Positions 34,587 through 54,610 of a stretch of 55,124 bases of DNA are shown here, in pieces. The stretch spans positions 1-55,124 of IMG/VR virus record IMGVR_UViG_3300010885_010349. One strand, given 5' to 3'. Position 1 is the first letter of the stretch. Each line of letters begins with the position of its first letter. Made by a program: the position numbers and the translations under genes. The notes beneath the pieces were generated by a model. It had not been told where the DNA came from and searched no databases. It saw only the letters and a list, made by a program, of their open reading frames with translations. Source of the DNA: a virus.

Positions 34587-34892
34587 ATGGATACAACGCT
34601 ATTAATCACCGAAGCCAAAGCTCGCTTCAATCATAACTCAGCTAAAACATATCTTAAAGACAAGTACGATAGTAAGTTTATCGTAGCTGACCAGTCTGGT
34701 CTTTGGAGAGCCAATTTAGAAACTATCAACTTTCTAAACTCATCAACTGATGAACAGGTAATTTTGATAGACACATTCAATAATCCTGTTAAAGTTAATA
34801 GAACTAGCTTACTATACAAACTTGCTGACACTTATAAGAATGTTATGGAAGAATGGCATAATGAATGGGCTGACCTAGAGAAAAAAAGATGA
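34587..34892 (+). CDS. Conserved-type small phage protein, 101 aa, unknown function
   Basis: A 101-residue mostly helical, charged protein: ARFNHNSAKTYLKDKYDSKF near the start, GLWRANLETINFLNSS in the middle, and SLLYKLADTYKNVMEEWHNE near the end. I recognise the style from small proteins adjacent to tail genes in T4-like aquatic phages but know no function. TAGGAG at correct spacing supports the ATG. Its stop overlaps the next gene's start as ATGA, so it heads the accessory operon. It could be a tail assembly or chaperone-type protein rather than part of the sugar pathway. Confidence 0.65.
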   Translation: MDTTLLITEAKARFNHNSAKTYLKDKYDSKFIVADQSGLWRANLETINFLNSSTDEQVILIDTFNNPVKVNRTSLLYKLADTYKNVMEEWHNEWADLEKKR

Positions 34893-35695
34893 CCAGAGGT
34901 GTATTGCTTTTTGCATTCAATAGCCCAAAATACAATTACTATGAAATGGCAGTCGCTACTGCTAAACGTATAAATCACTTTTTGGGTCTTCCTGTTACAC
35001 TAGTAACAGATAGTGAATCATTGCCTGTAAAACAATCATATGAATTTGATAATGTTATACTTGCACCCGCTGATAAAAGCAACCGAAGAGATTGGGGAGT
35101 TTGGTATAATAAAGGTAGATATCGTGCATATCAGTTTAGTCCGTATGATGAAACACTTTTATTAGATACAGACTATATGGTTAACTCTGATAAGTTATTA
35201 AAGACTTTTGATTTACCTACAGATTTTTGCTGTCATGATACCACTAGCTTTTTGATGCACCCAAAAGCTGCACAAGAAATGTTAAGTGTATATAGTTTCA
35301 ATACATTGTGGGCAACTGTAATCATGTTTAAGAAAACAAAAAGAGCAGAACAAATATTCAATTGTTTAGAAATGGTACAAAATAACTTTGAACATTATGC
35401 AAACATACATGGATTTATAGCAGCAACCTTTAGAAATGATTACGGGCTAACACTAGCAACTAGAATTGTCAATGGGCAGACAACTCCTAATGAAGATATT
35501 ATTCCGTGGAACTTATTGCATGTGGGTAAGAATACCAGTGCATATAGTAATACTAAAGATGAATTTAATACAGAATATACTGTTATGTTTGATAACTGGA
35601 ATAGGGGTAAGATTCGCAAAGAATATATCACTATAAAAGATACTGACTTTCATGTTATGAACAAGGAAAACTTTATGGAGCTGATAAGTGAATAA
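34889..35695 (+). CDS. GT-A-type glycosyltransferase-like protein
   Basis: 268 residues with a nucleotide-sugar-transferase layout: an N-terminal strand and helix (GVLLFAFNSPKYNYYEMAVA), a VTLVTDSE second strand near 36-43, and TLLLDTDYMV with the metal-binding DTD at 93-95, all in the order expected for a GT-A fold (compare GT8-like enzymes). A later HVGKNTSAYS/FHVMNKENF region has histidines that could complete the metal site. The sugar and acceptor cannot be read from sequence. It overlaps the preceding gene as ATGA and the next by eight bases. No signal peptide, so it acts in the cytoplasm of the infected cell. Confidence 0.6.
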   Translation: MTRGVLLFAFNSPKYNYYEMAVATAKRINHFLGLPVTLVTDSESLPVKQSYEFDNVILAPADKSNRRDWGVWYNKGRYRAYQFSPYDETLLLDTDYMVNSDKLLKTFDLPTDFCCHDTTSFLMHPKAAQEMLSVYSFNTLWATVIMFKKTKRAEQIFNCLEMVQNNFEHYANIHGFIAATFRNDYGLTLATRIVNGQTTPNEDIIPWNLLHVGKNTSAYSNTKDEFNTEYTVMFDNWNRGKIRKEYITIKDTDFHVMNKENFMELISE

Positions 35696-36443
35696 AGGTT
35701 TTGTAATAATGGCTCAGGATACTGGGAAAACAAGCTATACCAAATGTGCTGAAACATTAAAGAAAAGTATACTAAGAGTAATGCCCGATGCTAATGTAAC
35801 TATCATTACCACTGATATATTACCATACGGCGATCTAGCTAAAGATAGTGATTGGAAATTAATCAATGACTGGCAAGTGTATGAAGCAAGCCCGTACGAT
35901 TATACAATCAAGTTAGAAGCTGACATGTATATTCCGCGCAATATAGACCATTGGTGGGATGTATTAAAAGACAGAGAGGTAGTGGTGTCAAGTACAATCA
36001 GGAACTTCAAGCAAGAAGTATCTGATGTAAGATTTTATCGTAGATTTATAGATGACAACAATTTACCAGACGTGTATAATGCAATCACTTACTTTAAAAA
36101 GTCCGCTGTTGCTAAACAATTCTTTGCAATAGTTAAAGAAATATTTGAAAATTGGGAAGAATATAAAAAGATATTAAAATGCAATCCAAACGAACTAGCA
36201 ACAACAGACTGGGTCTATGCACTAGCGTGTCATGTTATGGGTGTAGAAAAAACCACACTTCCTATGTTTACTGAGATGAGCATAGTACATATGAAATCTT
36301 TTATTAACGGTAATCCTACTGATAATTGGACTGATACTTTTATATATGAATGTTTGCCCGATCAGATTAGAGTACAAACCGTACCTCAACAGTATCCATT
36401 TCACTATCATGTGAAGAATTTTTGTGATAAGATTGTAGTATGA
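35688..36443 (+). CDS. Second GT-A-like putative glycosyltransferase
   Basis: 251 residues, related in layout to the gene before it: KGFVIMAQDTGKTSYTKCAE first strand and helix, NVTIITTD second strand near 36-43, then TIKLEADMYIPRN with EADM at 77-80 in place of the DxD. The late segment MSIVHMKSFINGNPTDNW and FHYHVKNF has His residues that may bind metal. Replacement of DTD by EADM keeps an acidic pair but makes activity less certain. The start is a GTG at 35688 overlapping the previous stop by eight bases; an ATG at 35709 is possible but would remove the first beta strand. Likely cytoplasmic. Confidence 0.55.
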   Translation: MNKGFVIMAQDTGKTSYTKCAETLKKSILRVMPDANVTIITTDILPYGDLAKDSDWKLINDWQVYEASPYDYTIKLEADMYIPRNIDHWWDVLKDREVVVSSTIRNFKQEVSDVRFYRRFIDDNNLPDVYNAITYFKKSAVAKQFFAIVKEIFENWEEYKKILKCNPNELATTDWVYALACHVMGVEKTTLPMFTEMSIVHMKSFINGNPTDNWTDTFIYECLPDQIRVQTVPQQYPFHYHVKNFCDKIVV

Positions 36444-36784
36444 ACGACCAAGAAGATTATGTAATTGTTTGGGAAGCGCCTAAAATAGTACCACCTGAAT
36501 TAAGATTGTACTATGATGATGAGGGCAAAGTAATTTGTTATACCGGCGATAAATCTGTAGAAGGTAAATACATTGTTATCGATACACAAACATTTGCTGA
36601 AGCTAGACCTGATATTAGAGTAATCAACGGTAAGATTTCAAGAGTCAAACCAAATGCAGTGGTATATAAACTAATGCCAAATAATGAAGAAGGTGTTAGT
36701 TGTCACCCTGAAGATATTAGTATTATAGTTGATGATAAAGACAATCATACAAAATGGAAATTAAACATATATGAACTCCGGTGA
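36440..36784 (+). CDS. Small conserved-type protein of the accessory operon, 114 aa
   Basis: 114 residues, beta-rich, no cysteine cluster: an acidic start, ELRLYYDDEGKVICYTGDKS, GKYIVIDTQTFAEARPDIRV, INGKISRVK, then EEGVSCHPEDISIIVDD. I recall similar small proteins beside tail and radical-SAM genes in aquatic phages but know no role. It overlaps both neighbours (ATGA upstream, possible 14-base overlap downstream), so it is an integral part of the operon. A specificity or chaperone partner for the neighbouring transferases or radical-SAM enzymes is a guess. Confidence 0.6.
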   Translation: MNDQEDYVIVWEAPKIVPPELRLYYDDEGKVICYTGDKSVEGKYIVIDTQTFAEARPDIRVINGKISRVKPNAVVYKLMPNNEEGVSCHPEDISIIVDDKDNHTKWKLNIYELR

Positions 36785-37724
36785 TATCATTGATATGGCT
36801 GACTTAGATTGTATCTATCTAAGTTATGATGAACCACAAAAAGAAGAATTTTGGCTTAAAGTAAAAAACATGGTTCCATGGGCACAGCGTGTAGACGGTG
36901 TTAAGGGCAGTGATGCTGCACACAAAGCAGCAGCCGAATTAAGTAGTACTGAACGCTTCATTCTGATTGACGGTGATAACATGCCAGAAGAAAGTTTCTT
37001 CAACCTTCAATTAGATTTCACTGATAAAGATTCTAACTTCAGATTAGCACAGTATCGTTGGAAAGCTATTAATAGTATCAACGGGTTGCGCTATGGCAAC
37101 GGTGGTATGAGTAGTTGGACAAAGACTTATGTTGCTAATATGAAAACACATGAAAATCAAACAGACGGTGATGTAAGTCGTATTGCTGATTTTTGCATGG
37201 ATAGTAAAGATAACTTATACTGGGCAATGTATGATTGTTATTCTACTACTTATCCTAATTATACTCCGTTTCAAGCGTGGCGCGCTGGATTCCGTGAAGG
37301 AGTAAAAATGGTTCTTGACAAGGGCGCTAAGCCTGATATAGAAACTTTCAAAGAAACTGTTGCAAGTCGCAATTTAAACAACTTGACTATATGGCACAAT
37401 GTAGGTGCAGATGTTGAGAATGGCATGTGGGCTATTTACGGCGCACGATTAGGCACATACATGACCATGCTAACTGGCTGGGACTATACCAATGTACAAT
37501 GGTTTGATAACTATATTACACTTTGGGAAGAACAAGAACATAGAGATCCAGAACGTGAAGCAACACTGTTAGGCGCAGCACTATACGACAAACTTGGATT
37601 GCCTATGTGTACGTTGGGGAAAGAACAAAGTAAGTTTTTTAAACGTCACTACAACACTGACAAACATAATCTAGGTCCACTCGTAACAGAGATGGATGTT
37701 ATTCGTAGAATTGAAGGATGGTAA
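36771..37724 (+). CDS. Glycosyltransferase-like protein with DGDN motif
   Basis: 317 residues. The N-terminus runs LDCIYLSYDEPQKEEFW, PWAQRVDGVKGSDAAHKAA and TERFILIDGDNMPEESFF, the order of a GT-A-like Rossmann half with DGDN (67-70 counting from the ATG at 36771) as acidic metal site. The C-terminal half (FQAWRAGFREGVKMVLDKG, WAIYGARLGTYMTML) is helical. The last domain of the 1039-residue protein at 49306 is a homologue. An ATG at 36795 would begin MADLDCIYLSYDE and may be the true start; neither start has a clear ribosome-binding site, and translation probably continues from the preceding gene. Substrate unknown. Confidence 0.5.
   Translation: MNSGDIIDMADLDCIYLSYDEPQKEEFWLKVKNMVPWAQRVDGVKGSDAAHKAAAELSSTERFILIDGDNMPEESFFNLQLDFTDKDSNFRLAQYRWKAINSINGLRYGNGGMSSWTKTYVANMKTHENQTDGDVSRIADFCMDSKDNLYWAMYDCYSTTYPNYTPFQAWRAGFREGVKMVLDKGAKPDIETFKETVASRNLNNLTIWHNVGADVENGMWAIYGARLGTYMTMLTGWDYTNVQWFDNYITLWEEQEHRDPEREATLLGAALYDKLGLPMCTLGKEQSKFFKRHYNTDKHNLGPLVTEMDVIRRIEGW
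37713..37718 (+). promoter_or_regulatory. Ribosome-binding site GAAGGA deciding the next start
   Basis: GAAGGA ends five bases before the ATG at 37724, which forms TAATG with the preceding stop. The alternative ATG at 37718 overlaps the site itself and is unlikely. Confidence 0.65.
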
Positions 37725-39118
37725 TGAGTAGTGAACACCAAAGAATTCAAGACATTAAGATTAAAATAGAAAATGAAACTACTAGTTCTTTCTGTCTAGC
37801 AAAGTGGCACCATGTCACGATGTATTTGCAATCAGGAGAGACACATAGCTGTTATCACCCCAAGCCACACAAAATACCCCTAGCTGAATTAGCCGATAAT
37901 CCTTCAGCATTACATAACACAATGCACAAGAAACTTGAGCGCAAAGAAATGCTTGAGGGCAAGAAGCCAGAGGGATGCCAGTACTGCTGGAATATTGAAG
38001 CAATGGGTCCTGACTATATCAGCGACCGTCATATTCGCAATTCTTCAATTTTTAATGAAGAACGATATAAACAAACAGTAGAAGGTCCGTGGGACCAAAA
38101 CATTAATCCAGAGTATATAGAGATTAATTTTGGCAACGAATGTAACTTCAAGTGTGGTTACTGTCATCCAAAGTATAGTACTAGTTTTTATAATGAAATT
38201 AAAACTAACGGGCCTGTTACTACAGTAAAGAATCATCGGTGTGATATTGATTGGATGAAACTATATCAGCGTGAAGAAGAAAATCCCTATGTAGATGCAT
38301 TCTGGAAGTGGTGGCCTGAACTACGCAAGACATTGAACATTATGCGAGTCACCGGTGGTGAACCCACTATGCATACTAGCACATGGAAATTATTGAAAGA
38401 AATCAATAATGACCCAATGCCATGGTTAGAGTTGAATATTAACAGTAATTTAGGAACTAAGACAAGTCTAATTGAGAAATTAAGCGACAATGTTAAACAG
38501 TTATGCGATGACGGAAAGATTCGTGCATTCAAGTTATTCACTAGTTTAGATACCTGGGGTCCTCGTGCTGAATATATTCGTACTGGATTAGATTTAGAAT
38601 TGTGGGAAACAAACTTTCATACATATCTTACTAGAACCAACAGCCCAATCACGTTTATGATTACATTTAATATCTTTAGTGTAACAACGTTTAAAGATTT
38701 CTTAGCTAAGTTCTTAGAGTGGCGTGAGCAGTATGGTTGGTATGATGATACAAAAAGTCATCGTGTTCGATTTGATACCCCTTACTTGCGTGATCCAATA
38801 CAGTATGATATGAATATTCTTCCCAAAGAAGAATTTATGCCCTATATGCATGATGCATTAAAGTTTATGCTAGAAAACGTAGATGATAATGCTAGTAATA
38901 AATTTACTACAGTCGAATATGAAAAGTTCAAGCGAGTAGTGGATTATATGGCAGAGACAGTTTATCCAGAACACAAACTGATTGAAGGTCGTAGAGATTT
39001 TTATAACTGGTTCAACGAATTAGATGAGCGGAGAGAGACTGATATGTTAGCTGTATTTCCTGAGATGTTAGATTTTTATAGATTGTGTCAATCTACCAAT
39101 CAACTTAATCCATTATGA
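37724..39118 (+). CDS. Radical-SAM protein with N-terminal twitch Fe-S motif (1 of 4)
   Basis: 464 residues. The radical-SAM cluster motif CNFKCGYC (Cys 140, 144, 147) binds the 4Fe-4S cluster that splits S-adenosylmethionine; GGEP at 211-214 is the usual SAM-amino-group loop. Ahead of the core, Cys 24, Cys 43 and the CQYC pair (85, 88) match the N-terminal twitch half-SPASM arrangement that holds an auxiliary cluster. This architecture belongs to the twitch-domain radical-SAM family, several members of which are phage-encoded, with no proven substrate. SPASM/twitch enzymes usually act on peptides or proteins, sometimes sugars. Start chosen at 37724 from the GAAGGA site. Its stop overlaps the next gene as ATGA. 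Confidence 0.85.
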   Translation: MSSEHQRIQDIKIKIENETTSSFCLAKWHHVTMYLQSGETHSCYHPKPHKIPLAELADNPSALHNTMHKKLERKEMLEGKKPEGCQYCWNIEAMGPDYISDRHIRNSSIFNEERYKQTVEGPWDQNINPEYIEINFGNECNFKCGYCHPKYSTSFYNEIKTNGPVTTVKNHRCDIDWMKLYQREEENPYVDAFWKWWPELRKTLNIMRVTGGEPTMHTSTWKLLKEINNDPMPWLELNINSNLGTKTSLIEKLSDNVKQLCDDGKIRAFKLFTSLDTWGPRAEYIRTGLDLELWETNFHTYLTRTNSPITFMITFNIFSVTTFKDFLAKFLEWREQYGWYDDTKSHRVRFDTPYLRDPIQYDMNILPKEEFMPYMHDALKFMLENVDDNASNKFTTVEYEKFKRVVDYMAETVYPEHKLIEGRRDFYNWFNELDERRETDMLAVFPEMLDFYRLCQSTNQLNPL

Positions 39119-40317
39119 AAAATATTGATCAGAATGTTATTTGTTTAATGCCTTGGATACACACGCACATTTGGCCAAATGGCGATGCGTTTCCATGCTG
39201 CATGAGTGATACTAAAGAAGTATTTGGTAATGTTCATAAAGAATCTCTTAATGATTTGATGAATAACGACAACTATAAAAACATAAGAAAACAAATGCTT
39301 AATGGAGAAAAACCTACAGCATGTTCACGGTGTTATGAGTTAGAAGATACAGCAGACAGTTGGACGTTGCGTAAAAATAGTTTACAAAGTTTTAAAAATC
39401 ATTTACCTTACTTAAATGAAACCAAAGACGATGGTAGTATTAATGATTTTAGAATGAGATATTTAGATATTAGATTTAGTAATTTATGCAATATGAAGTG
39501 CAGGACATGTGGTCCTAGTTTGAGTAGTAGTTGGTATGATGATCAAATAAAATTACATCCAGAATCAGTAACAAAGAAATTCATTGATTTAAAATCTAAT
39601 CCTAATTTTATGAATGATTTAATGCCGCATTTAGATACAATAGAGGAAGTATATTTTGCTGGTGGAGAAGCGTTGATAACTCCACAACACTATGAGATTC
39701 TAGATTACTGGTTATCAAAAGGTCTTACACATATCAAACTGAGATATACAACTAACTTTAGTAATTTCCGTTATAAGGACAGGTCTATACTTGATTATTG
39801 GAAAAAATTTAATGATGTTCGTGTCGCTGCTAGTTTAGATACGCACGGTAAGATAGCTGAATATGCTAGAAAAGGAACTAATTGGGATGACATAGTATTA
39901 AACAGACAACAAATGATAATGCTTTGCCCAGATGTTTATTTTGAAATTACACCTACAGTGGGAATTTTTAGTGTGCATAGTCTATTTGATTTTCATAAAT
40001 CTTGGGTAGAAGAAGGATTATTGGACATCAATAACATAAGAATAAATATTTTGACACATCCAAGATACTTTTCAATTACTATCTTACCCAAAAATGAAAA
40101 AGAAAAAATTAGAGAACTGTATGAAGAATATTGCAACTGGTTAATTAAAAACAATGCAAAAGATAACATCATACGTGATGTAAAAGGAATCGTAAGTTAT
40201 ATGGATAGTGTAGACCACACTAATCTTTTGTCCGAATTTAAAAAACAAATTAAAGTAATAGATGATGTTAGAAATGAAAACTTTGCAGAAATATATCCTT
40301 GGGCTGAAAATATATGA
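39115..40317 (+). CDS. Radical-SAM protein with N-terminal twitch Fe-S motif (2 of 4)
   Basis: 400 residues. N-terminal cysteines at 10, 28, 29, 70 and 73 (ICLMPWIHTHIWPNGDAFPC, then CSRC) give the twitch pattern, with W-x-x-x-x-I-x-P-N-G-x-x-x-P-C-C spacing as in SPASM domains. The radical-SAM motif is CNMKCRTC (125, 129, 132). The SAM loop is GGEA (183-186), a conservative change from GGEP. The C-terminus is helical and charged. It is clearly paralogous in layout to the other three twitch genes, yet diverged well beyond easy nucleotide recognition, so they are not recent duplicates. It overlaps both neighbours as ATGA. Confidence 0.85.
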   Translation: MKNIDQNVICLMPWIHTHIWPNGDAFPCCMSDTKEVFGNVHKESLNDLMNNDNYKNIRKQMLNGEKPTACSRCYELEDTADSWTLRKNSLQSFKNHLPYLNETKDDGSINDFRMRYLDIRFSNLCNMKCRTCGPSLSSSWYDDQIKLHPESVTKKFIDLKSNPNFMNDLMPHLDTIEEVYFAGGEALITPQHYEILDYWLSKGLTHIKLRYTTNFSNFRYKDRSILDYWKKFNDVRVAASLDTHGKIAEYARKGTNWDDIVLNRQQMIMLCPDVYFEITPTVGIFSVHSLFDFHKSWVEEGLLDINNIRINILTHPRYFSITILPKNEKEKIRELYEEYCNWLIKNNAKDNIIRDVKGIVSYMDSVDHTNLLSEFKKQIKVIDDVRNENFAEIYPWAENI

Positions 40318-41642
40318 ATGACATAAAAAATCAAAGTAAATTTTGTATTTTGCCATGGTTAAATTTAAATACAAATCCAAATGGCAATTTAAAATTATGC
40401 TGTAGCATACAAGAAGATAAGTTTATTTTGCATAAAGACGGTACGCCGTTTAATCTGGGACATCATGCTATAGAAGAACTGTGGAATAGTGATTACATGA
40501 AAAATGTAAGACATAGTACAATTTTAAATCAAGAAGTGTCAGATTGTAATAGTTGTTATGATATAGAAAAAGTTTCAGGTCACAGTCCTAGAATGGGACA
40601 AAATGTGATGTGGGGCAGTCTATTGAAAAATGATAAACCGCTGTCTGATTTTGTAGATATATCATTAGCAGATGTTACAAAGCCATTAACGCAACTGCCA
40701 GTTAGTTTAGAACTTAGATTAGGTAATCAATGTAATCTACAATGTGTAAGCTGTTGGGGAATGAGTAGTTCATTGTTACATCAGGAAAGATCTGAATACT
40801 TAGATAAAAATCAAGTAAATGATCCTTCTTTATCTTGGTTAAAAACTAAATGGATATTAGATAGACAAGCTGTGGAATCTACTGATGTCCGTGATTGGTA
40901 TGAAACTGAAGCATTCTACGATAATTTTAGAAAGATGGCTCCAACTTTACAAAGATTATATACGACTGGCGGGGAACCTACCCTAATCAAAGCAAACTAT
41001 AAAATGTTTGAAATGCTTTTGGAAGCAAACAATACCTCATGTCATATAGAATTTACTAGCAACATGGCTGTATGGAATCATTCGTTCTACGATAAACTAG
41101 AAAAATTTAAGAATGTTGAAATACAGATGAGTGTTGACGGGGTAGATGCAGTTGGTGAATATATTAGATACCCTAGTGATTTTAAAAAAGTCAGAGAAAA
41201 TATTGACAAAGCAGTTGAATTGGCCTCTACTAGACCCGGATGGAAAATCAAATGCTATACTGTATTACAAGCTATGAACTTTAAACATGTAATGTCAATT
41301 TGGAGTATGCTTTATATATTGTCTGCTAAACATGACCAGCATATAACTTGGTGGCCAATAACATTATCTGCTCCGAAACATTTGTCATTGAGTGCTGTCC
41401 CACAAAATATCAGAGAAGAATATATTGAATTAATAACTGCACAGTCGAAAAATTATAGAAAATTTTACAATGATGCCCCTAATAGGTTTGTAGTTGGCGA
41501 CCATACTTTTAATGCATACAAAGATTCACTACTTAATACTACTTACAATGATGACATGAATAAAAGATTAAAATCTTTTGTAAATTTCAATGATAAGCAC
41601 CGTGGATTAACCGGCATTGAGTTATTTAAGGATATCTTATGA
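40314..41642 (+). CDS. Radical-SAM protein with N-terminal twitch Fe-S motif (3 of 4)
   Basis: 442 residues. Twitch cysteines are at 11, 29, 30, 78 and 81 (FCILPWLNLNTNPNGNLKLC, then CNSC). The radical-SAM motif is CNLQCVSC (140, 144, 147), GGEP lies at 219-222, and a MSVDGV strand near 276 is the usual 'SIDG' region of this family. Substrate unknown. Compared with copy 2 it has a longer insertion between the cluster motif and GGEP (about 72 residues against 50). It is coupled to both neighbours by ATGA overlaps, so all four successive enzymes from 37724 to 42610 would be made from one message. Confidence 0.85.
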   Translation: MNDIKNQSKFCILPWLNLNTNPNGNLKLCCSIQEDKFILHKDGTPFNLGHHAIEELWNSDYMKNVRHSTILNQEVSDCNSCYDIEKVSGHSPRMGQNVMWGSLLKNDKPLSDFVDISLADVTKPLTQLPVSLELRLGNQCNLQCVSCWGMSSSLLHQERSEYLDKNQVNDPSLSWLKTKWILDRQAVESTDVRDWYETEAFYDNFRKMAPTLQRLYTTGGEPTLIKANYKMFEMLLEANNTSCHIEFTSNMAVWNHSFYDKLEKFKNVEIQMSVDGVDAVGEYIRYPSDFKKVRENIDKAVELASTRPGWKIKCYTVLQAMNFKHVMSIWSMLYILSAKHDQHITWWPITLSAPKHLSLSAVPQNIREEYIELITAQSKNYRKFYNDAPNRFVVGDHTFNAYKDSLLNTTYNDDMNKRLKSFVNFNDKHRGLTGIELFKDIL

Positions 41643-42610
41643 ATGATAAACTAATAGCTATAAAACCAGTAGACAATCCTTATATCAATATAACATGGCA
41701 AGTAAGTGACTTCTGTAATTTTAAATGTAGCTATTGCAATCCGGGTAATTGGGCAGGCAAAAACCCTAAAAAAAATGAGCCAGAAGATTTTGATAAGATA
41801 GTAGAAAATTTAAATATAATTCTAACTGCACACGAAGCTAGGGGATATAAGGGATTTAAATTCTTTTTCAGTGGGGGCGAACCTACTGTTTGGCCACATT
41901 TATTACCTTTAATTAAATGGTTGAAAGAACGATTAGATGATCCACAAATAGCAATCAATACTAATCTAAGCACTAGTACTAATTGGTGGAAAGAAAACTA
42001 TCACTTGTTTCACGATGTTGTAGCTAGCTATCATATTGATTTTGCTAATACCCCCAGATACTTAGATAACTTAATTTTTTTACAAGACAAGGTAAACTAT
42101 CTATGTTGCAGAATGATGATGCAAGAAAATAGATTTGATGAGGTTATTGAATTTGGAGAAAAAGTAAAATCTATTTTACAAAATTATAACTTAGAATGGG
42201 TACCCCTATTTGATGATATTAGTGTTAATGTAGGTCCCTGGAAATATAGTGAGCCTAGAATGTATGAATTCTTTGAGACACACACGTTTGAATCACAAAC
42301 TAAAATCGATAAGCCAAACGGAAGTAAATGGAGAACTGCTAGTAAAGAAGTATATGATTCAGGAACAGAACAACCATTGAATGGTAACAGATTAGTAGCA
42401 GAACGAAAAAATTTCTTTTCTGGATGGAAATGCTATGTTGATGAAAGTTTGTTTATAAATAGCACTGGACATATAACTGCTGCTAGCTGCGGTCAAGGGC
42501 CATCATTAGGTAACATATACGATACTGTCACTACAGTAGCAGAACCAGTAATATGCAAAAAGCAGCAATGCACCTGCGGTACGGATATACTTATTACAAA
42601 GGAAATTTGA
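41639..42610 (+). CDS. Radical-SAM protein with C-terminal SPASM-like cysteines
   Basis: 323 residues. Here the radical-SAM motif is near the N-terminus (CNFKCSYC, Cys 26, 30, 33) with GGEP at 79-82, and the auxiliary cysteines follow the core: GWKC (265), Cys 284 in an ITAASCGQG loop, Cys 306, 311 and 313 (CKKQQCTC). That is the normal SPASM order, the reverse of the twitch genes on either side. SPASM proteins carry one or two extra Fe-S clusters and modify peptides, proteins or small molecules by radical chemistry. It overlaps the previous gene as ATGA and abuts the next (TGAATG). Its different layout suggests a distinct step in the same pathway. Confidence 0.82.
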   Translation: MNDKLIAIKPVDNPYINITWQVSDFCNFKCSYCNPGNWAGKNPKKNEPEDFDKIVENLNIILTAHEARGYKGFKFFFSGGEPTVWPHLLPLIKWLKERLDDPQIAINTNLSTSTNWWKENYHLFHDVVASYHIDFANTPRYLDNLIFLQDKVNYLCCRMMMQENRFDEVIEFGEKVKSILQNYNLEWVPLFDDISVNVGPWKYSEPRMYEFFETHTFESQTKIDKPNGSKWRTASKEVYDSGTEQPLNGNRLVAERKNFFSGWKCYVDESLFINSTGHITAASCGQGPSLGNIYDTVTTVAEPVICKKQQCTCGTDILITKEI

Positions 42611-43855
42611 ATGTCATTGTATTGTGCATTAGCATCAAATTCTATAAGTTTTGGATACGACGGGACTATAAGACCCTGTTGTGCAGTAGATACCTATTTT
42701 TGGCCTGGACAAAATCGACACCAACTAGCAAACTATGATAATAATGTAGTAAAATGGTTTAATAATACTGAATTGGTATCATTAAGAACAAAACTACTAG
42801 ATGGTAAATGGGACCCTATATGCAACATGTGCCGTACTAGAGAACAGCATGGTCAAGCTAGCACTAGACAAATATTTAATAATACATTAGATGATGTAGA
42901 AACTAGATTAAATAAAAACCTTCATACTTCTACCGCAGTCATACCTGATTTATCTAATATATTTTTATTGGATATAACAGTAGGTAATAAATGTAACAGT
43001 GCATGTTTGATGTGTAATGAATCTGCTAGTTCACTTTGGAAGAAAGAACAAGAAATCATTACTGGTGAAAAAATGAATTGGGTCACTCCAAATTGGTTCA
43101 CCGAAGAAAATATACCAAATTTAATTGATAACTTACCTAATCTTAGTGCTATACAGTTTCTAGGTGGAGAGCCTACAATTAATGAACCTCATATATTTTT
43201 ATTAAAACGATTGATTGCTCAGGGTAGAGCAAAAAATATAACATTAGGATATGTAACTAATTTGACCGGAGTATCAGATGAATTATTAGAGTTGTGGAGT
43301 CATTTTAGTACTAAACACATTACTATTAGTATAGATGGAGTAGGTCCAATAAATGAATATATCAGATACCCCTTCAGTTGGAATAAGGTAGTATCACAGT
43401 TAGAAAATTTAAAAGAAATTGCTAAACAGCATGGAAACTATCATATTGGATTAAGTCATACTGTAATTTCATTAAACTTGCTTACATTAGATAATTTAAT
43501 TGATTGGTGGGAAACACAGATTGAAACTAATTCAAGTATATTAAAAAGTTTACCACACATACAATGTGTAAATAATCCTGATTATTTTGACCCTATATAT
43601 ATGCCGGATCAAATGAAAGAAAAAGCTAAAGATACTTTACAAAGAGTAATTCAATTGTCTGCTGACCGTAATTTAGGAGAAAAGTATACACCGGCTATTA
43701 ATAACATACTTAATAATGTGATAAACAAACAAGTTGACAGTGAGTTGCAAACCACCAAATGGTTAGAAATGCAAAAATTTGTTAGTTCATTGGATAAGCA
43801 TCGTAATAGAAATATATTTGATTACATCCCTTATATGAAAGATTATTGGATATAA
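42611..43855 (+). CDS. Radical-SAM protein with N-terminal twitch Fe-S motif (4 of 4)
   Basis: 414 residues. Twitch cysteines are at 5, 23, 24, 71 and 74 (FGYDGTIRPCC, then CNMC); the radical-SAM motif is CNSACLMC (128, 132, 135); the SAM loop GGEP is at 185-188, and ISIDGVGPINEYIRYP marks the family's later core strand, nearly shared with copy 3 (VDGVDAVGEYIRYP). That shared EYIRYP segment makes copies 3 and 4 the closest relatives of the set. The ATG directly follows the stop of the SPASM gene. No substrate can be named. Confidence 0.85.
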   Translation: MSLYCALASNSISFGYDGTIRPCCAVDTYFWPGQNRHQLANYDNNVVKWFNNTELVSLRTKLLDGKWDPICNMCRTREQHGQASTRQIFNNTLDDVETRLNKNLHTSTAVIPDLSNIFLLDITVGNKCNSACLMCNESASSLWKKEQEIITGEKMNWVTPNWFTEENIPNLIDNLPNLSAIQFLGGEPTINEPHIFLLKRLIAQGRAKNITLGYVTNLTGVSDELLELWSHFSTKHITISIDGVGPINEYIRYPFSWNKVVSQLENLKEIAKQHGNYHIGLSHTVISLNLLTLDNLIDWWETQIETNSSILKSLPHIQCVNNPDYFDPIYMPDQMKEKAKDTLQRVIQLSADRNLGEKYTPAINNILNNVINKQVDSELQTTKWLEMQKFVSSLDKHRNRNIFDYIPYMKDYWI

Positions 43856-43856
43856 T

Positions 43857-46964: not shown

Positions 46965-46973
46965 CTATTATTT

Positions 46974-46981: not shown

Positions 46982-47013
46982 ATTTTAATTAGTATATTAA
47001 ATAAGGAAATTTT

Positions 47014-48210
47014 GTGACAACAGTAGCAATGATTGGGGTAGGTAAATTAGGACAAGAATGTGCTGAAGTTATGGCACAACATTACGATGTGGTGGGTTAT
47101 GATGTAGAGGATAGAAATCCTGCTTTCCCTATGAGAAAAACAATTGAAGATGCGGTAAGTGGTAGAGATATTATCTTTATTGCAGCACCTACAGCACACG
47201 ATCCAATATACGGCGGAGAAACTCCAACTAGTCATTTACCTAACAAAGATTTTGACTATTCTATCGTTACTGGCATTCTGACTGAAGTTAACAAATATGT
47301 AAACAAAACTCAATTAGTTGTATTGATTAGCACTGTATTGCCCGGCACAGTTCGTAATATATTAGAACCTTGCATCACTAATGCTAGATTCATTTATAAT
47401 CCATATCTTATTGCTATGGGTACCACTAAGTGGGATATGGTAAATCCTGAAATGATTATCATTGGCACAGAAAATGGTAGTATAACCGGCGATGCAAAAG
47501 AATTGATTGAGTTCTATAAAGTGTTCATTGAGAATGATCCTAGATATGAAGTAGGGACTTGGGATGAAGCCGAATCTATAAAAATCTTCTATAATACTTT
47601 TATATCTACTAAAGTTGCATTGGTTAATATGATACAAGATGTTGCTGAAACAAATGGTAATATCAATGTAGATGTTGTCACTAACGCATTATCAAAAAGC
47701 ACACATAGAATTACTGGACCTGCATATATGAAAGCTGGCATGGGAGATGGCGGGGCATGTCATCCAAGAGATAATATTGCATTACGTTATCTAGCAGATA
47801 GATTAGATTTAGGATACGATTTGTTTGATGCTATAATGAAAGCACGAGAAGTACAAGCAGAACGCATGGCTAAAAAATGTTTGCAGTACGGCAAAAATGC
47901 TACTATTATCGGTAAAGCATATAAGCCTAGTGTACCGTATACAAACGGAAGCGGTAGTATGTTAGTAGGGCATTATATAGAACAACACGGTGGAACAGTT
48001 AACTACTATGATGCTAATACTGGTGATTTAGATTTGAAAACAGATAGCACAGATGTATATTTAATTGGTTACTGGGAACAATGGGTTAGGGACATTGATT
48101 GGAAAACAGAATCAAAACGAATTTATACTTTTATTGATCCATGGCGTGAAATGGGTGATGTGATCGGACATAAGGTTATTCATTATGGTAATACTAGGAA
48201 GATTAGTTAA
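47014..48210 (+). CDS. NDP-sugar (UDP-glucose/GDP-mannose-type) 6-dehydrogenase
   Basis: 398 residues of the family that oxidises a nucleotide sugar twice with NAD to the uronic acid (for example UDP-glucose to UDP-glucuronate). Seen: the NAD loop GVGKLG (8-13) with Asp 30 closing the first Rossmann strand pair; STVLPGT (106-112); substrate-site Lys 190 and Asn 194 (SIKIFYN); and the catalytic cysteine in GGACHPRDN (Cys 249), for the usual GG-x-C-x-P-K-D. All key residues are present, so it should be active. The N-terminal domain is somewhat short and divergent for UDP-glucose dehydrogenase (usually near 400-450 residues), so the exact sugar is open. GTG start with AAGGA. Overlaps the next gene as TAATG. 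Confidence 0.8.
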   Translation: MTTVAMIGVGKLGQECAEVMAQHYDVVGYDVEDRNPAFPMRKTIEDAVSGRDIIFIAAPTAHDPIYGGETPTSHLPNKDFDYSIVTGILTEVNKYVNKTQLVVLISTVLPGTVRNILEPCITNARFIYNPYLIAMGTTKWDMVNPEMIIIGTENGSITGDAKELIEFYKVFIENDPRYEVGTWDEAESIKIFYNTFISTKVALVNMIQDVAETNGNINVDVVTNALSKSTHRITGPAYMKAGMGDGGACHPRDNIALRYLADRLDLGYDLFDAIMKAREVQAERMAKKCLQYGKNATIIGKAYKPSVPYTNGSGSMLVGHYIEQHGGTVNYYDANTGDLDLKTDSTDVYLIGYWEQWVRDIDWKTESKRIYTFIDPWREMGDVIGHKVIHYGNTRKIS

Positions 48211-49283
48211 TGACCCCTACAACACTATTGCTAAAAATATGGCCAGAATTACAAAATCACCTAGACAAAATACATATTATTGATTCTCACTTACATACTT
48301 CATTTCCTATTACCGACGATGAAATAATTATAAAAGATATACTACAAGCAAAAAAAGAAGGAAAAAGTAAGTTTTTATTTTACTTAATAAGTGAAGGAAT
48401 TGTATTACATATACTTCAAAAGATTCATAATATTGCTAGTTTACTAAAAAATGATATAGATTCTAAAGATTTAATTTATGTTTGCGGCGCACCTGATGGG
48501 GCAGAGGTATATGAAAAATTACATAAACAATACTTTTGGGAAAATAAAATTTCAATAATATCAGTCAACGCACATTGGTTTAGTTTAAATTATTCAATAT
48601 TAAGTTCTTTGCCAGTTGAATATAATAGTAAATTAAAAGAAAAAATATTTTTATGTTTTAATAAAATGCCTAGAAAGCATAGACTAGACTTGTTAGAGTT
48701 AATGATACAACATGACTATATTGATAAAGGATATTATTCATTTGAAGGTCCAAACTTAAATTGGGATTTGTTATCCGATGATTATATAAACATAAAAAAG
48801 AATCGCAATAAATTCCCACTAAGATTGAATATTACAACAGATAGAAGTAATCCAGTTGATATTATACCAGATGATATAAAATATTTTGATGATAGTTATT
48901 TTAGCGTAATAACGGAAACATTTTTTTATACGGATCCTATGTATGGGGTTGACTCTCTCTTTATAACTGAAAAAACACTTAAATGTTTGGGCTGTGTGCA
49001 TCCTTTTGTCATGTTAGGTAGACCATATTCATTAAAAGAATTAAAAAGAATAGGGTACAAAACATTTAGTCCATTCATCGATGAATCATATGATTCTATT
49101 GAAAATAACGAAGAAAGATTGATAGCAGTCTTTAACGAAATACAAAGATTGATGTTAAAAACAAATATAGAATGGTTAGAATGGCAAACTAATATAAAAG
49201 AAATTGTAGAACATAACAAGCAGCACTTCCATTCATCAACTGATTATAGCACAACCAAAGACATTGAGAAATATTTCATATAA
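48210..49283 (+). CDS. GT-B/fucosyltransferase-like protein, paralogue of the gene at 43857
   Basis: 357 residues. Shared with 43857 in the same order: FNKMPRKHRLDLLELMIQHD then DKGYYSF; YFSVITETFFYT; ITEKTLKCLGCVHPFVMLGR; IGYKTFSPFIDESYD. The N-terminal third (HIIDSHLHTSFPITDDEIII, LIYVCGAPDGAEVYEKLH) is different from that of the paralogue, so acceptor specificity probably differs. Likely a soluble transferase using a nucleotide sugar; the TAATG coupling to the dehydrogenase suggests it uses that enzyme's product. Codon use here is especially AT-rich. Activity and family are inferred from pattern only. Confidence 0.5.
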   Translation: MTPTTLLLKIWPELQNHLDKIHIIDSHLHTSFPITDDEIIIKDILQAKKEGKSKFLFYLISEGIVLHILQKIHNIASLLKNDIDSKDLIYVCGAPDGAEVYEKLHKQYFWENKISIISVNAHWFSLNYSILSSLPVEYNSKLKEKIFLCFNKMPRKHRLDLLELMIQHDYIDKGYYSFEGPNLNWDLLSDDYINIKKNRNKFPLRLNITTDRSNPVDIIPDDIKYFDDSYFSVITETFFYTDPMYGVDSLFITEKTLKCLGCVHPFVMLGRPYSLKELKRIGYKTFSPFIDESYDSIENNEERLIAVFNEIQRLMLKTNIEWLEWQTNIKEIVEHNKQHFHSSTDYSTTKDIEKYFI

Positions 49284-49305
49284 GCAGTAGCTGTTTAAAT
49301 ATAAG

Positions 49306-52300
49306 ATGCTACGAGATGTCTTTTATTACGGCTCTAAACCCAATGTTCACCCAAGAGAAAAATTTGCAGCTTCAATAGAAGATGCTAGAAATCAATGCAC
49401 CACTGAGCATTTTTGGGTAATCAACGAATATTGTGAGTATCGCAATTTTGATTGGGACTGGGATTTTGAATTTTTACCTGATGAAGATGTATGGGCAGAA
49501 GAACACAATAATGTATGGCCTAGCTATCATCAAAAAGATAGTGGCACTTGGTTATGCCCTAAACAAGATAGTGAAATAGTTATCTATCGTGCTGATGTTG
49601 ATCCACTAAAAAGAAAAAACGAAAAAAATAACAATTGGGTACTATTAGATTTAGTTGATGAAACTAAATTTGATTTCAGCTGGCACCCAGATCCAACTAG
49701 CCCTCCATATGTATATGTATGGGGCAATAAATGGAATCCAGTAGAATTACAACCAGTATTAGAATATCATGCTCCTGATTCACATGAGGTTGATCGTAAG
49801 TATATGGATCAAATAGTTGAATTATTACCCAACGAACATTTCAAAGAAATACTACCTATTGATAAGTCTAAGTTTGATTTGTCATGGAGACCTGATCCAA
49901 GAGAACCTCCGTTTATCTATCTTTGGGGCAGCAAGTGGAATAAAGCAACAGTTGAACCAGTATTAGTTTATTACTGTCCCGGAGCAACGGATAAAAAATA
50001 TCTTGATAACCCTATCAATTTACTGCCTAGCATGGCTAATTGGGAAGTACCAAACAACATCGATACTGCTGCGTTTGATTTTAGTTGGAGACCCAATCCA
50101 AATGACCCACCTTACATATATCAACTGGGAACACAATGGCAAAAGACAGGTGGTCCGCGCTATATTTCACCCGAAATGCCTAGATTGAGTTCTGGTGAAG
50201 CTATTGGTCAGATAAAATATATTGACACACCAAAAGCAAAAAGATTGCCCAATAATGAAAATTGGAAAGTATCAACTGATATAGATGTTAGTAATTTTGA
50301 TTTTAGTTGGCATCCTGATGATACTAGTCAACCATATGTTTATAGATTTGGTACAATATTAGATAGAGATGATGGTCCTAGATATATTACACCCAATAAC
50401 ACCGGTGAATCAGTTTATATGGAAAGAATAGTTTTATCAAAGCCAATAGAAATATCTTATCCTAAATATTTATTGTCTACCTCATTAGAAGATTTGATCA
50501 ATCAACACCCTGACGAAATATTTTGGGCAGTAAATCCCCACATAGACTATACTAATTTTAATTTTGATTGGAAACCTAGTATTGAACAATCACAATACAT
50601 TCAAGTATTTGGTTCAAGTGAAAACACCAAAACACAAACTTTCTTAGTAAATTCTGTTATGTGGCTCAAGGGGAACACCGAGTATAATTGGGTAGAAGAA
50701 CAAGTAAAAAACAAAATTGATATGTTCTTTGTTGATAGAAGTAATAGCGAATCACAAATTAGATTTGAAAAACTCAAAATTAAATTTCCAAACATAACAA
50801 AAACAAGATATTTAAACAGTTGGGTCGATACAATAAATCGCTGTATCAATCGTTCTACTAGTAATTTATGCTGGATACTCAATAGTGAATTAGATTACGA
50901 TGGGTTTGATTTTGACTATTATCCTAACCCATGGCAAATGAAGATGGTTCATGTGTTTGGTACTCAATGGAGTCATTGGGGAACAACTTACTTGGTCAAT
51001 AGAGAAATTTTCCCCCAAGATACTAAGTATATAAAAATTATTGAACATCTATCTAACTTGAATTTTGTTAAAACTATAAAAGCTAAAGCATCTAATGTGT
51101 TGTATGATATAGTTTACATAGACCACGGCAATAAAGATTTATCTGATATCAATAACTTAATTGTTAAGTATGAAACTAATTATTTGAATACTTTTAAGAT
51201 TATGTTGGATAAACTTCCGGTCAAGAAAGAACATTATGTATGGGTAACCAGTACGATATGTGATTATAAAGACTTTGATTTTACTTATATCTGTGATCCA
51301 TTTTCCAAAGAACATTTGCATGTATTTCCCAGTGATAGGCAAAAGTTTGGAGATACATTTTTAATTGATGTTAATAAACTTAGAACATTAGTTAGTGAGA
51401 TGAACTCTTTGGAAGAGTACGGTAAAATTAACTATAATCAACATCAAAGAGTAAAACGATTATCTGCCCCGGTTATTATTACACCAGATGATACACATGT
51501 TTCTAGTGTGAATGCTGATTTTAGTTTTCCGTATGCTGTATTTGTGACTGAAGATAATAAAAATATCAATATGGTTGATACTGAACCAATGAATTTATGG
51601 AGCAATGAAACTAAAAATATTACTATTACTAGCACGGGAGGAACAAGAATTATAGTTCCAAAAGAAGCTAAACAGTATGTAAAGAAAGAGTTATACGATT
51701 ACCCCTACATCATTACAAATAGCAAACTTCTAGAATCTAACCCGCTAGACATTGTATTCTTTAGTAACGGTGAAACTAGTGCAGATAAAAATTATGAACA
51801 CTTGTTAAAAATAACACAGGGGTTACCTAACAAAGTTACTAGAATAGATGGTATAAATGGTCGTGTGAAAAGTCAACATACTGCTGCAAATAGTAGCAAT
51901 ACAGCATGGTACTTTTTGGTAAATGCCAAACTAAAAGTAACAGCAAAATTTGATTTTAATTGGCAACCAGACAGATTACAGATACCAAAACATTATATTT
52001 TTCACGCTACTAATCCAGTAAACGGACTAGTGTATGGGCATCAAGCTATTGTTGCTAACAATAAGAAACTCACGTTAGAGAACTTTGGAACTGGCTTAGA
52101 CTTTACTATGGATAGTGAACACGAAGTTGTCCCGGTTAACTGTGGTATAGGTATGTATAACAGTAGTGAGTGGGATACCTGGCGTACTGCGTTCCGTGAA
52201 TGTATTAAACTTAAAGCATCTGAAACAGAAGAAAATGAAATAAGATTAAATACATGGCTAACATTAGCAATCGGGGACTTTGCCGAATATAGTTTACAAG

Positions 52301-52425
52301 GTGCCCAACATGCTGTACAATATTATGAACAAGTCAACGGTGACCTCACACAATTACGACTAAGCTATGATTGGGTTTGGTTAAAAGAAAAATTTAATAA
52401 AATATATGGAATTAGAACAATATAA
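49306..52425 (+). CDS. Large modular repeat protein (1039 aa) ending in a glycosyltransferase-like module
   Basis: Repeats centred on F-D-F-S-W-(H/R)-P-(D/N) start at residues 122, 190, 257 and 331 (spacing 68, 67 and 74), each followed by P-P-Y-(V/I)-Y-x-(W/L/F)-G. Looser copies of a W-x-(V/L)-N...F-D-F-D pattern occur near 36-54, 406-425, 522-540, 644-662 and 867-887. Residues about 814-1039 match the DGDN protein at 36771: LDIVFFSNGETSADKNYE, TRIDGINGRVKSQHTAANSS, then WDTWRTAFRECIKLK. In that copy the DGDN is replaced by NAKL, so the metal site looks lost. The protein may be a chain of decayed transferase-derived modules acting as a binding scaffold, or a substrate. No signal peptide or membrane helix. 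No clear ribosome-binding site before the ATG. Overlaps the next gene by 20 bases. Confidence 0.55.
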   Translation: MLRDVFYYGSKPNVHPREKFAASIEDARNQCTTEHFWVINEYCEYRNFDWDWDFEFLPDEDVWAEEHNNVWPSYHQKDSGTWLCPKQDSEIVIYRADVDPLKRKNEKNNNWVLLDLVDETKFDFSWHPDPTSPPYVYVWGNKWNPVELQPVLEYHAPDSHEVDRKYMDQIVELLPNEHFKEILPIDKSKFDLSWRPDPREPPFIYLWGSKWNKATVEPVLVYYCPGATDKKYLDNPINLLPSMANWEVPNNIDTAAFDFSWRPNPNDPPYIYQLGTQWQKTGGPRYISPEMPRLSSGEAIGQIKYIDTPKAKRLPNNENWKVSTDIDVSNFDFSWHPDDTSQPYVYRFGTILDRDDGPRYITPNNTGESVYMERIVLSKPIEISYPKYLLSTSLEDLINQHPDEIFWAVNPHIDYTNFNFDWKPSIEQSQYIQVFGSSENTKTQTFLVNSVMWLKGNTEYNWVEEQVKNKIDMFFVDRSNSESQIRFEKLKIKFPNITKTRYLNSWVDTINRCINRSTSNLCWILNSELDYDGFDFDYYPNPWQMKMVHVFGTQWSHWGTTYLVNREIFPQDTKYIKIIEHLSNLNFVKTIKAKASNVLYDIVYIDHGNKDLSDINNLIVKYETNYLNTFKIMLDKLPVKKEHYVWVTSTICDYKDFDFTYICDPFSKEHLHVFPSDRQKFGDTFLIDVNKLRTLVSEMNSLEEYGKINYNQHQRVKRLSAPVIITPDDTHVSSVNADFSFPYAVFVTEDNKNINMVDTEPMNLWSNETKNITITSTGGTRIIVPKEAKQYVKKELYDYPYIITNSKLLESNPLDIVFFSNGETSADKNYEHLLKITQGLPNKVTRIDGINGRVKSQHTAANSSNTAWYFLVNAKLKVTAKFDFNWQPDRLQIPKHYIFHATNPVNGLVYGHQAIVANNKKLTLENFGTGLDFTMDSEHEVVPVNCGIGMYNSSEWDTWRTAFRECIKLKASETEENEIRLNTWLTLAIGDFAEYSLQGAQHAVQYYEQVNGDLTQLRLSYDWVWLKEKFNKIYGIRTI

Positions 52426-54610
52426 AAAAAAGATTGTAGAATCAAGACCACTAGAACCTGATGCGGATATTAAGCATCTTGCTATGTTGCAGGCTATTGC
52501 ACCTTATGCAAAAGCTAAAGTTCAAAAAAATGTAACTACTATTGATATAAAATATGCTTATAGAAAAACAAAGTTATTATTAATACTCTGCCCAGAATGG
52601 GCACCAATGTTTCCTCCCTTTAATCTTGCTAGATTGTCAGCAGTAGCAAAAGGTGCCGGATACGAATCTACTTGTATTGATTTGAATGTAAAAGCATACA
52701 ATTTGTCTAAACAATGGCAGAGTAATGGACTTATTGATTTTAATCCATGGGACGGGGCAAGAGATTGGAAATGGTTAGCACAAGACTACTATAGTGGTAT
52801 ACATCCGCATCTAAGTATTTTGTTAAATGAATACATAGAACAGATTGTTAAAAATCCCCCTGACGTTATAGGATTTACAATGTACTACACAAATGCAGAA
52901 CCAGTAAAGTACATGGTAAAAGAATTAAGAAAAAGATTACCAAATATTAAAATATTAGTCGGTGGACCTAACATTAGACCTTGTCAAGAACCGCATCACT
53001 GGAGTGGGGAAGATGATAACATGTTTGATTATGTTATTAATGGCGAAGGTGAATTACTTCTTTTAGAAATTTTAGAAGAAATTGAAAATGGAATAGTTCA
53101 CGACAAGGTTCAAAGACTATCTCAACCAGAAGAACAGAGATTAAATTTGAATGACTTGCCTATGCCTGATTATTCTAATTTCGATTTTAATGAGTATGAA
53201 TTTCCAAATGGAGTTAATAGTGAACTAAGTAGAGGCTGTACTGCAAAATGTACCTTTTGCGAAGAAACACATTTTTGGAAATATCGTCAACGCATGGCTA
53301 CTGATGTATTAAAAGAAATAGAAACACTGTACTATGAAAAAGGAACTGACATTGTTTGGTTCATTGATAGTTTGGTAAATGGAAATCTAAATGAACTCAG
53401 AGCCTTCTGCAAAGGAGTCATTGCTAAAGGCATGAAAATTAATTGGACAGGCTATGCAAGATGTGACGGTAGAATGGATTTAGAATTCTATCAAGATTTG
53501 GCTGATTCGGGTTGTCGCATGTTAAACTATGGAATAGAGTCTGGTAGTCAGCCTGTATTAGATGATATAGATAAAGGTGTTACTATTGCTGAGATGGAAC
53601 AGAACTTTAAAGATGGGAAGAAAACTGGTGTAAGTGCTTTTACTAACTGGATAGTAGGGTTCCCAACAGAATCATATCAAAATTTTTCAGATACGATGAC
53701 TTTTTTATGGCGAAATAGAAATAACAATATAGATAATATTGCTGCTGGATTTGGGTTTGGTTTAGGAATGGATACTATTGTCGGACAAAACCCTGACAAA
53801 TTTAATCTACTGGCACATAAGTATGCAGGTGGATGGATAACTAAAGATTTCAAACTTTCTAAATTTCATGTTATGGTTAGAATGAAAGTGTTTGCAGTAT
53901 TCTTGCAGCACCTATTAACCGAAAAATCAGTAACAATACCACAACGCGGTAATCTACCAATGCATCATTATAAAATTGTGTTTGATGATCCAACATTGCA
54001 AAAAGAAATTGAATATGAAAATTTTGATTACAACATAATACATCCTGGTATCAATCCTTTTGCTGATAGTTTAGTAAATGAAATATTTACATTGTTTAGA
54101 ATATTGTGGCGAACACGCGGAGGATTTACTGCTACTATTAAATTTGACCAAGATTTAGATATGATAGAATTTGGTGAAAGAAATGCTGGACCTTATTGGG
54201 CTAATCATAATTTTACTATAGATGATGAAGGTAATTGGAAAGCAAACTTTGATTATCATTATCAGCAACCAATTGCTATTATTAATCCAGCAGACCCGTT
54301 ATCAATAAAGTCACCGTTTTTTGCACAAGATTATTCTAGACAGCAATCTAATGCATCCATTAGGGCTAGAAAACTAGCTAAACCAAAATGGGGAGAGGGT
54401 GGTAGAAATCATGATGAATTTATGGAGTTGATAGAGGAAGAAAAATATTTAAATAGTACAATTGACTTTTCCTTTAAACATAATTGGCAAGGTGAAGGGT
54501 CGTGGGCAAACTCTGAAAAATATATTGTAGCTGTTCCTAGTTCACATACAACATCCCCAAAACATTATGCACCTATTAAATTTGACAAACTAGAAGCTAA
54601 GTCAAGTTGA
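52406..54610 (+). CDS. Cobalamin-binding-type radical-SAM enzyme (plus strand)
   Basis: 734 residues. After a ~55-residue leader comes the B12-binding layout: LLLILCPEWAPMFPPFNLAR, a strand-helix ending GAGYESTCIDLN, PDVIGFTMYYTNAEPVKYM, IKILVGGPN (182-190) and the family's NGEGE (212-216). The DxHxxG motif is absent (class B without a protein base ligand). The radical-SAM core follows: SRGCTAKCTFC (Cys 278, 282, 285), WFIDSLVNGN, the strand LNYGIESGSQPVLDDIDKGV and FTNWIVGFPTESYQNF. About 280 further residues, aromatic- and Asn-rich, have no recognised family. It is last in the accessory operon. Likely a methylase or ring-forming enzyme, substrate unknown. Confidence 0.85.
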   Translation: MELEQYKKKIVESRPLEPDADIKHLAMLQAIAPYAKAKVQKNVTTIDIKYAYRKTKLLLILCPEWAPMFPPFNLARLSAVAKGAGYESTCIDLNVKAYNLSKQWQSNGLIDFNPWDGARDWKWLAQDYYSGIHPHLSILLNEYIEQIVKNPPDVIGFTMYYTNAEPVKYMVKELRKRLPNIKILVGGPNIRPCQEPHHWSGEDDNMFDYVINGEGELLLLEILEEIENGIVHDKVQRLSQPEEQRLNLNDLPMPDYSNFDFNEYEFPNGVNSELSRGCTAKCTFCEETHFWKYRQRMATDVLKEIETLYYEKGTDIVWFIDSLVNGNLNELRAFCKGVIAKGMKINWTGYARCDGRMDLEFYQDLADSGCRMLNYGIESGSQPVLDDIDKGVTIAEMEQNFKDGKKTGVSAFTNWIVGFPTESYQNFSDTMTFLWRNRNNNIDNIAAGFGFGLGMDTIVGQNPDKFNLLAHKYAGGWITKDFKLSKFHVMVRMKVFAVFLQHLLTEKSVTIPQRGNLPMHHYKIVFDDPTLQKEIEYENFDYNIIHPGINPFADSLVNEIFTLFRILWRTRGGFTATIKFDQDLDMIEFGERNAGPYWANHNFTIDDEGNWKANFDYHYQQPIAIINPADPLSIKSPFFAQDYSRQQSNASIRARKLAKPKWGEGGRNHDEFMELIEEEKYLNSTIDFSFKHNWQGEGSWANSEKYIVAVPSSHTTSPKHYAPIKFDKLEAKSS

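Follow-up and report, generated by a model that had tools for sequence, protein, structure and literature searches.

In pelagimyophages, a host recognition cluster (HRC) lies between the giant VrlC gene and gp14 and holds glycosyltransferases (GTs) and cassettes of radical S-adenosylmethionine (rSAM) enzymes by the tail fibres; these phages also carry a uridine diphosphate (UDP)-glucose 6-dehydrogenase among genes of lipopolysaccharide type, and their description gives no family or function for the rSAMs (PMC7029224). The T4-like marine virus TARA_ERS488813_N000010 encodes 12 rSAMs together with an A-type Fe-S carrier, reported without a function (PMC5332604). Here, we analysed a related kind of locus, an island of rSAM and GT genes from an uncultured giant phage, at positions 34587-54610 of the IMG/VR record IMGVR_UViG_3300010885_010349, a 55-kb linear virus record taken in full as the window (55,124 nt).

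Compared by description, the island resembles the pelagimyophage HRC in its GTs and rSAMs near tail fibres and its UDP-glucose 6-dehydrogenase, and differs in belonging to another phage lineage and in having an ordered seven-rSAM module with B12-binding types. As in T4-like HRCs, it is hypervariable, lies by the fibres, contains GT genes and follows a giant gene, whose 6516-aa product matches phrog_10938 (its likeness to VrlC is by description). With TARA_ERS488813_N000010 the shared trait is a phage genome that combines many rSAMs with an A-type Fe-S carrier; however, that virus is not presented as having a glycan island, and gene order and families are not in the available text. The statement of an earlier note on this DNA, that no described phage system has this gene set, was thus too strong. 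From what these two sources give, the kind of locus (rSAM cassettes by fibres, a 12-rSAM virus) is already known, and the new elements are the enzyme family, the ordered module, the boundary between a fixed and a variable part, and the B12-binding types.

That the island encodes a glycan pathway, whichever the target, is the best-supported reading, and we consider it probable. Three lines of evidence speak for the glycan role: the GT folds, the sugar genes of sister islands, and the O-antigen exporter and GT2 genes beside a bacterial relative. For the fuller proposal, that the island builds and diversifies a glycan whose product most likely goes to the virion fibres and, second, to the host envelope, our confidence is about even. 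The earlier note had described a complete pathway for an unusual modification: the glycan role is supported, while a complete pathway, a particular sugar or a choice between virion and host goes beyond what the data show.

Seven rSAM genes of three types

PF04055 matched seven genes in the window, all intact and all keeping CX3CX2C in translation (CNFKCGYC, CNMKCRTC, CNLQCVSC, CNFKCSYC, CNSACLMC, CPYACTFC, and CTAKCTFC). Four have an N-terminal twitch domain, one a C-terminal cysteine cluster and two a B12-binding domain, in agreement with the earlier note, which had counted four twitch, one SPASM-type and two B12-type enzymes.

The N-twitch genes, all on the plus strand, are R1 (37718..39118, 311 bits), R2 (39115..40317, 390 bits, with SPASM PF13186 at residues 10-74), R3 (40314..41642, 265 bits), and R5 (42611..43855, 286 bits). 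They exceed the whole-protein cut-off of 170 bits of NF033640 (“twitch domain-containing radical SAM,” N_Twi_rSAM), a family for which no characterised member was found in the literature searched. The cysteine pattern expected of it, C-x12-G-x4-C ... C-x2-C plus the rSAM CX3CX2C, is present by the spacing in translation, and C10, C28, C70, C73, C125, C129, and C132 are invariant across 27 aligned sequences. R4 (41639..42610, +) is without the N-twitch and stays below the cut-off (40 bits); five invariant C-terminal cysteines point to an auxiliary cluster.

The profile of the N-twitch matches the auxiliary domain of BtrN (E-value 2.6e-7), and the rSAM core has cytosylglucuronate decarboxylase among its matches; this enzyme and BtrN act on sugar-type substrates. 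BtrN, an aminocyclitol twitch rSAM dehydrogenase, has the same single-cluster twitch auxiliary domain, although at the C-terminus, whereas it is N-terminal in the island rSAMs. On the basis of the BtrN match and of the gene company, we infer that the rSAM chemistry acts on sugars.

In the phylogenetic tree, R1, R2, R3, and R5 belong to four distinct clades, each of which also contains orthologues from other phages; the clade of R1 further includes Bdellovibrionota genes. They are therefore retained distinct enzymes and not recent duplicates. Between the window and its near relatives (L008, or L090 for R7), the ratio of non-synonymous to synonymous substitution rates (dN/dS) ranges from 0.018 to 0.12 for all seven rSAMs (0.03 for R1), with strongly diverged synonymous sites. 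Judging from tree and substitution rates, the four twitch genes are ancient separate lineages under strong purifying selection.

R6 (45042..46964, −) and R7 (52406..54610, +) have B12-binding and rSAM domains above the Pfam cut-offs. The nearest models are KedN5-type C-methyltransferases for R6, and PhpK and a C-methyltransferase of ribosomally synthesized and post-translationally modified peptides (RiPPs) for R7. These matches to B12 C-methyltransferases are in line with a RiPP-like role, in which the rSAMs would modify the fibre proteins directly (cross-links, epimerised residues, C-methyl groups) and the GTs would glycosylate the result; moreover, the fibre genes adjoin the island, and peptide maturation is the role for which SPASM/twitch rSAMs are best known. 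However, the scores are far under the curated cut-offs (245 of 700 bits for R6 with the KedN5 type, 105 of 282 bits for R7 with the RiPP model TIGR03975), and an N-terminal twitch is a domain order unlike that of RiPP maturases. In addition, no precursor-like short open reading frame was seen, and the small conserved proteins A (34587..34892, +; 61-83% identity and the same position in relatives) and D (36440..36784, +; 52-75% identity in relatives) are without an obvious leader/core layout. We consider direct modification of this kind unlikely.

Weak matches of R1, R3, R4, and R5 to pVip models, and of R1-R4 to NF038283, could also suggest a viperin-like defence or counter-defence, with the rSAMs making modified nucleotides. 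The NF038283 scores (18-35 bits) fall short of the cut-off of 180, the matches cover the common rSAM core alone, and neither the extra twitch domains nor the GT neighbours fit, which makes this role extremely improbable.

Predicted glycosyltransferases and sugar-nucleotide dehydrogenase

By profile or predicted fold, five block proteins (B, C, E, F, and G) behave as putative cytosolic GTs, which agrees with the at least five transferase-like proteins reported by the earlier note. B (34889..35695, +) is a GT8/glycogenin-like enzyme of GT-A type (profile against PDB glycogenin, E-value 3e-6), and C (35688..36443, +) is its GT8-like homologue (shared alignment; phrog_1903). The B/C profiles gave no detectable homology with E (36771..37724, +), which ends the fixed module, is without a Pfam family match and carries a conserved DxDN motif. 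The model of E (predicted local distance difference test, pLDDT, 80) has a predicted GT-A fold, its best matches being GT-A enzymes (best Z 9.8).

The best Foldseek match of E is a GT structure from chlorovirus PBCV-1. The capsid glycosylation of PBCV-1 resembles the island in its virus-encoded GTs, but the match of E is a weak, generic GT-A one (template modelling score 0.42 at most in the top row). We know of no rSAM enzyme that is part of the PBCV-1 glycosylation system.

G (48210..49283, +) has a predicted GT-B fold (pLDDT 88), the leading matches being GT-B enzymes, and F (43857..45050, +) is its homologue, with 25% identity and a common C-terminal motif. PDB sequence searches with the E and F/G profiles returned nothing useful, and the assignments came from the fold search.

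The model of G aligns best with T4 DNA glucosyltransferases (Z 11.4), as would be expected if GTs and rSAMs decorated modified genome bases. Carbamoyltransferases in sister islands, and QueC-like PP-loop genes in a second rSAM block of the near relative G001, point in the same direction. Nevertheless, the Z of 11.4 is tied with many non-DNA GT-B enzymes, and the block sits with fibre genes and not with replication genes. PF00303 proteins occur in three of eight records, and the two checked (G004 and G005) are true thymidylate synthases by their FNIAS motif, not hydroxymethylases; a Tet/JBP search gave no match, its control being silent too. DNA hypermodification is, in our view, very unlikely.

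The gene at 47014..48210 (+) matches PF00984/PF03721 above cut-off and phrog_9148 (E-value 4e-97), confirming the nucleoside diphosphate (NDP)-sugar dehydrogenase of the earlier note. On these profiles it is UDP-glucose-dehydrogenase-like (UGD), although it misses the cut-off of the NCBIfam nucleotide sugar dehydrogenase model (144 versus 190 bits). The last product of this group, H (49306..52425, +; 1039 aa), combines an array of about eight FDF(S/D)W-type repeats with an E-like C-terminal domain that is degenerate: the DxD-bearing motif IDGDN of its homologue reads VNAKL in H. The counterpart of H in the relative L090, truncated there, has at least 1358 aa.

Conservation of the island across phages

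A single scan of viral contigs found 80 relatives of R2, which collapsed at 80% identity into 39 groups; neighbourhoods were counted in the 35 groups whose flanks reached 5 kb or more on each side. E, R1, the N-twitch genes and R4, then further rSAM, GT and sugar genes, follow one another in relatives at identities between 95% and about 35%. A GT family was present in 31/35 groups, R1 in 29, and R4 lay at most three genes downstream of R2 in 28; R7 (16/35) and the dehydrogenase (12/35) were found in fewer. Chance is not the explanation, as dozens of other contigs carry this gene set in the same order. The co-occurrence in order that the earlier note had proposed to look for thus recurs across the 39 groups, and the outcome that it named as contrary to an island, genes carried singly and scattered, was not what relatives presented: the neighbourhood is conserved, and this attempt at refutation failed.

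Sister islands in the same slot contain genes for an epimerase, a DegT aminotransferase, a dTDP-sugar 3,5-epimerase, a carbamoyltransferase, a C-methyltransferase, and a nucleotidyltransferase. In cultured phages, R1, R4, E, and H had no match, R2 and R7 had only distant ones, and the complete gene set was absent from every cultured phage searched. Single in-frame stops were present in the N_Twi genes of two distant relatives (TGA and TAG; G006:37975-38895 and G007:318146-319294), reflecting either pseudogenes or recoding.

A natural experiment was provided by contigs picked solely by their baseplate gene and then checked for N-twitch genes, which were present in 14 of 15. In those read out, the series fibre-A-B-C-D-E is constant (about 50-88% identity) and the content 3′ of E varies: G018 and G026 keep R1, R4, F, R6, and G with the remainder replaced; G025 has a different rSAM set after E; and in G017 a single rSAM precedes a family of unknown genes, a gene of sugar C-methyltransferase type and a nucleotidyltransferase gene. 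Read from gene content, this is the pattern of a putative exchangeable surface-structure cassette, like a serotype locus. Furthermore, synonymous divergence is uneven along the block (window versus L008), being about 0.6 per site from B to R1, small genes excepted, versus about 0.4 in R2, R5, UGD, G, and R7. This drop suggests recombination inside the island.

Genomic context and transcription

The left 31 kb of the window is a contractile-tail baseplate module, with a hub/lysozyme, a gp25-like wedge, a gp6-like wedge, and the giant virion protein mentioned above. The closest cultured relatives of the gp6-like wedge are jumbo phages, at about 33% identity (e.g., Phosso and GAP32). Three structural-type genes lie between this module and the island. 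Among them, a fibre-like gene (32328..33572, +), whose position is kept in relatives, encodes a Peptidase_G2 domain (PF11962, E-value 2.8e-7), an autoproteolytic chaperone typical of fibres. Adjoining it, a structural-type protein rich in Ser/Thr (29%; 33582..34538, +) is without a family match in profile searches, and this neighbour is kept in close relatives. The island is therefore placed directly after tail-fibre genes, as the earlier note stated.

The strands alternate along the island, plus at 34587-45050, minus at 45042-46964, and plus at 47014-54610. ATGA/TAATG couplings are present over 34889-43855 and at 48210, which sustains the coupling described earlier; the single operon proposed with it is not sustained, since R6 on the minus strand implies at least three transcription units. 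The T4-type late promoter TATAAATA is not enriched (6 found versus 12 expected), and scans for sigma-70 promoters and terminators showed no excess over shuffled sequence. After the island, positions 54771-55124 encode the start of a phrog_20531 protein whose N-terminus is hydrophobic, possibly a signal peptide; the window ends within this gene.

The near relative G001 (303 kb) carries 19 rSAM genes. About nine or ten genes form the second block, at 284-299 kb (L088, G001:283058-303057); it includes two genes of QueC-like PP-loop type and is bordered on one side by a homologue of E (41%). The block resembles a QueC-like/rSAM/rSAM cluster of KVP40 (L251), and in Vibrio phage K566 several rSAM genes are grouped near ribonucleotide reductase. 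In G001, a gene for a PstS-type phosphate-transporter subunit directly follows the block (L090:559-1575).

An A-type Fe-S carrier gene was found in 8 of 11 island phages. G009 has IscU and two A-type carriers beside DNA ligase (L158:808-1824), and A-type carriers are also present in G001, G002, G004, G005, G007, G008, G010, G013, G017, and G025. In a background of 50,697 phage records, A-type matches were found in 13 and IscU in 16, some of which may be host sequence.

Bacterial relatives and possible target of the proposed pathway

In Bdellovibrionota contigs, R2 and R4 adjoin, together with a third twitch-like rSAM (L098, L099, L100, and L102), and in one contig a carbamoyltransferase and a methyltransferase are near the pair. 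In Candidatus Jettenia, an N-twitch gene is flanked by Wzt/GT2 and GT2-like genes, an O-antigen exporter context. On a sequence reading, an N-twitch gene of Paenibacillus has acyl-carrier and ketosynthase-like genes around it; the link of the family with glycans is thus not universal. Six further contigs, in metagenome-assembled genomes (MAGs) of Betaproteobacteria, Verrucomicrobia, Pelagibacter, Rhodobacteraceae, and Rickettsiales (L101, L103, L104, L106, L136, and L138), have the order fibre-GT8-GT8-E-rSAM. For this order they were rejected as bacterial context and set aside, being probably phage contigs misbinned into MAGs.

The Wzt/GT2 cluster around a bacterial N_Twi relative, and the typical O-antigen sugar genes of sister islands, would also fit the same glycan pathway aimed at the host envelope, where an O-chain or capsule precursor would be remodelled, excluding rival phages or preventing the loss of progeny on debris. 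Such a role has been proposed for the GTs and UDP-glucose dehydrogenase of pelagimyophages (PMC7029224). Conversely, Pfam and profile searches of the block found no flippase, polymerase, ligase or initiating phosphoglycosyltransferase, and no transmembrane segment was predicted in any block protein, a composition more in keeping with substrates in the cytosol, for instance virion proteins; host machinery could supply these steps. Moreover, in close relatives the block is linked to the fibre genes, on the same strand except for R6. An envelope target remains a serious possibility, and virion proteins are favoured over it, given the link to fibre genes and the absence of genes for membrane proteins or polymer assembly.

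Several points weigh against the favoured reading, a glycan-building island acting on the virion fibres. A homologue of the fibre gene was within the fetched flank in only 7 of the 35 groups, so the block is not always beside fibres. The second rSAM block of G001 has ribonucleotide reductase genes among its neighbours. The association with Fe-S carriers is inseparable from lineage, because N_Twi genes in 14 of the 15 baseplate relatives leave one negative. Relatives of the SPASM/twitch and B12-binding rSAMs modify peptides too, and we infer both chemistry and target, with a putative substrate, product and fibre acceptor site. Finally, for similar clusters, the authors of the pelagimyophage report prefer modification of the host O-chain (PMC7029224).

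In the favoured glycan pathway, NDP-sugars supplied by the host and made by the phage (e.g., UDP-glucuronate via the dehydrogenase) would be joined into a short glycan by the cytosolic GTs. The twitch rSAMs, in a BtrN-like manner, would oxidise, epimerise or deoxygenate sugar units at successive positions, the B12-rSAMs would add methyl groups, and the phage-encoded Fe-S carriers would help to fill the clusters. The glycan may then be attached in the cytosol to the adjacent virion fibre proteins, a less sure step, where it could alter adsorption or shield from defences. A swap of the right module between phages would change the decoration, akin to a serotype switch. Less probably, the island could be an assembly line in which at least five rSAMs act in turn on one growing glycan or glycoprotein, giving virion fibres a decoration whose chemistry differs from that of all known bacterial or viral glycans, with interchangeable cassettes as phage “serotypes.”

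rSAM enzymes are costly and sensitive to oxygen; for a phage to maintain as many as about 20, along with Fe-S carriers of its own, the benefit of the product must be large. The lineage is common in environmental viromes, where the baseplate gene has at least 593 matches, and the reduced related set in KVP40-type and K566 Vibrio phages offers a laboratory handle. If the product decorates virions or the host surface, these islands would offer new sugar chemistry and a way for phages to change their surface identity rapidly.

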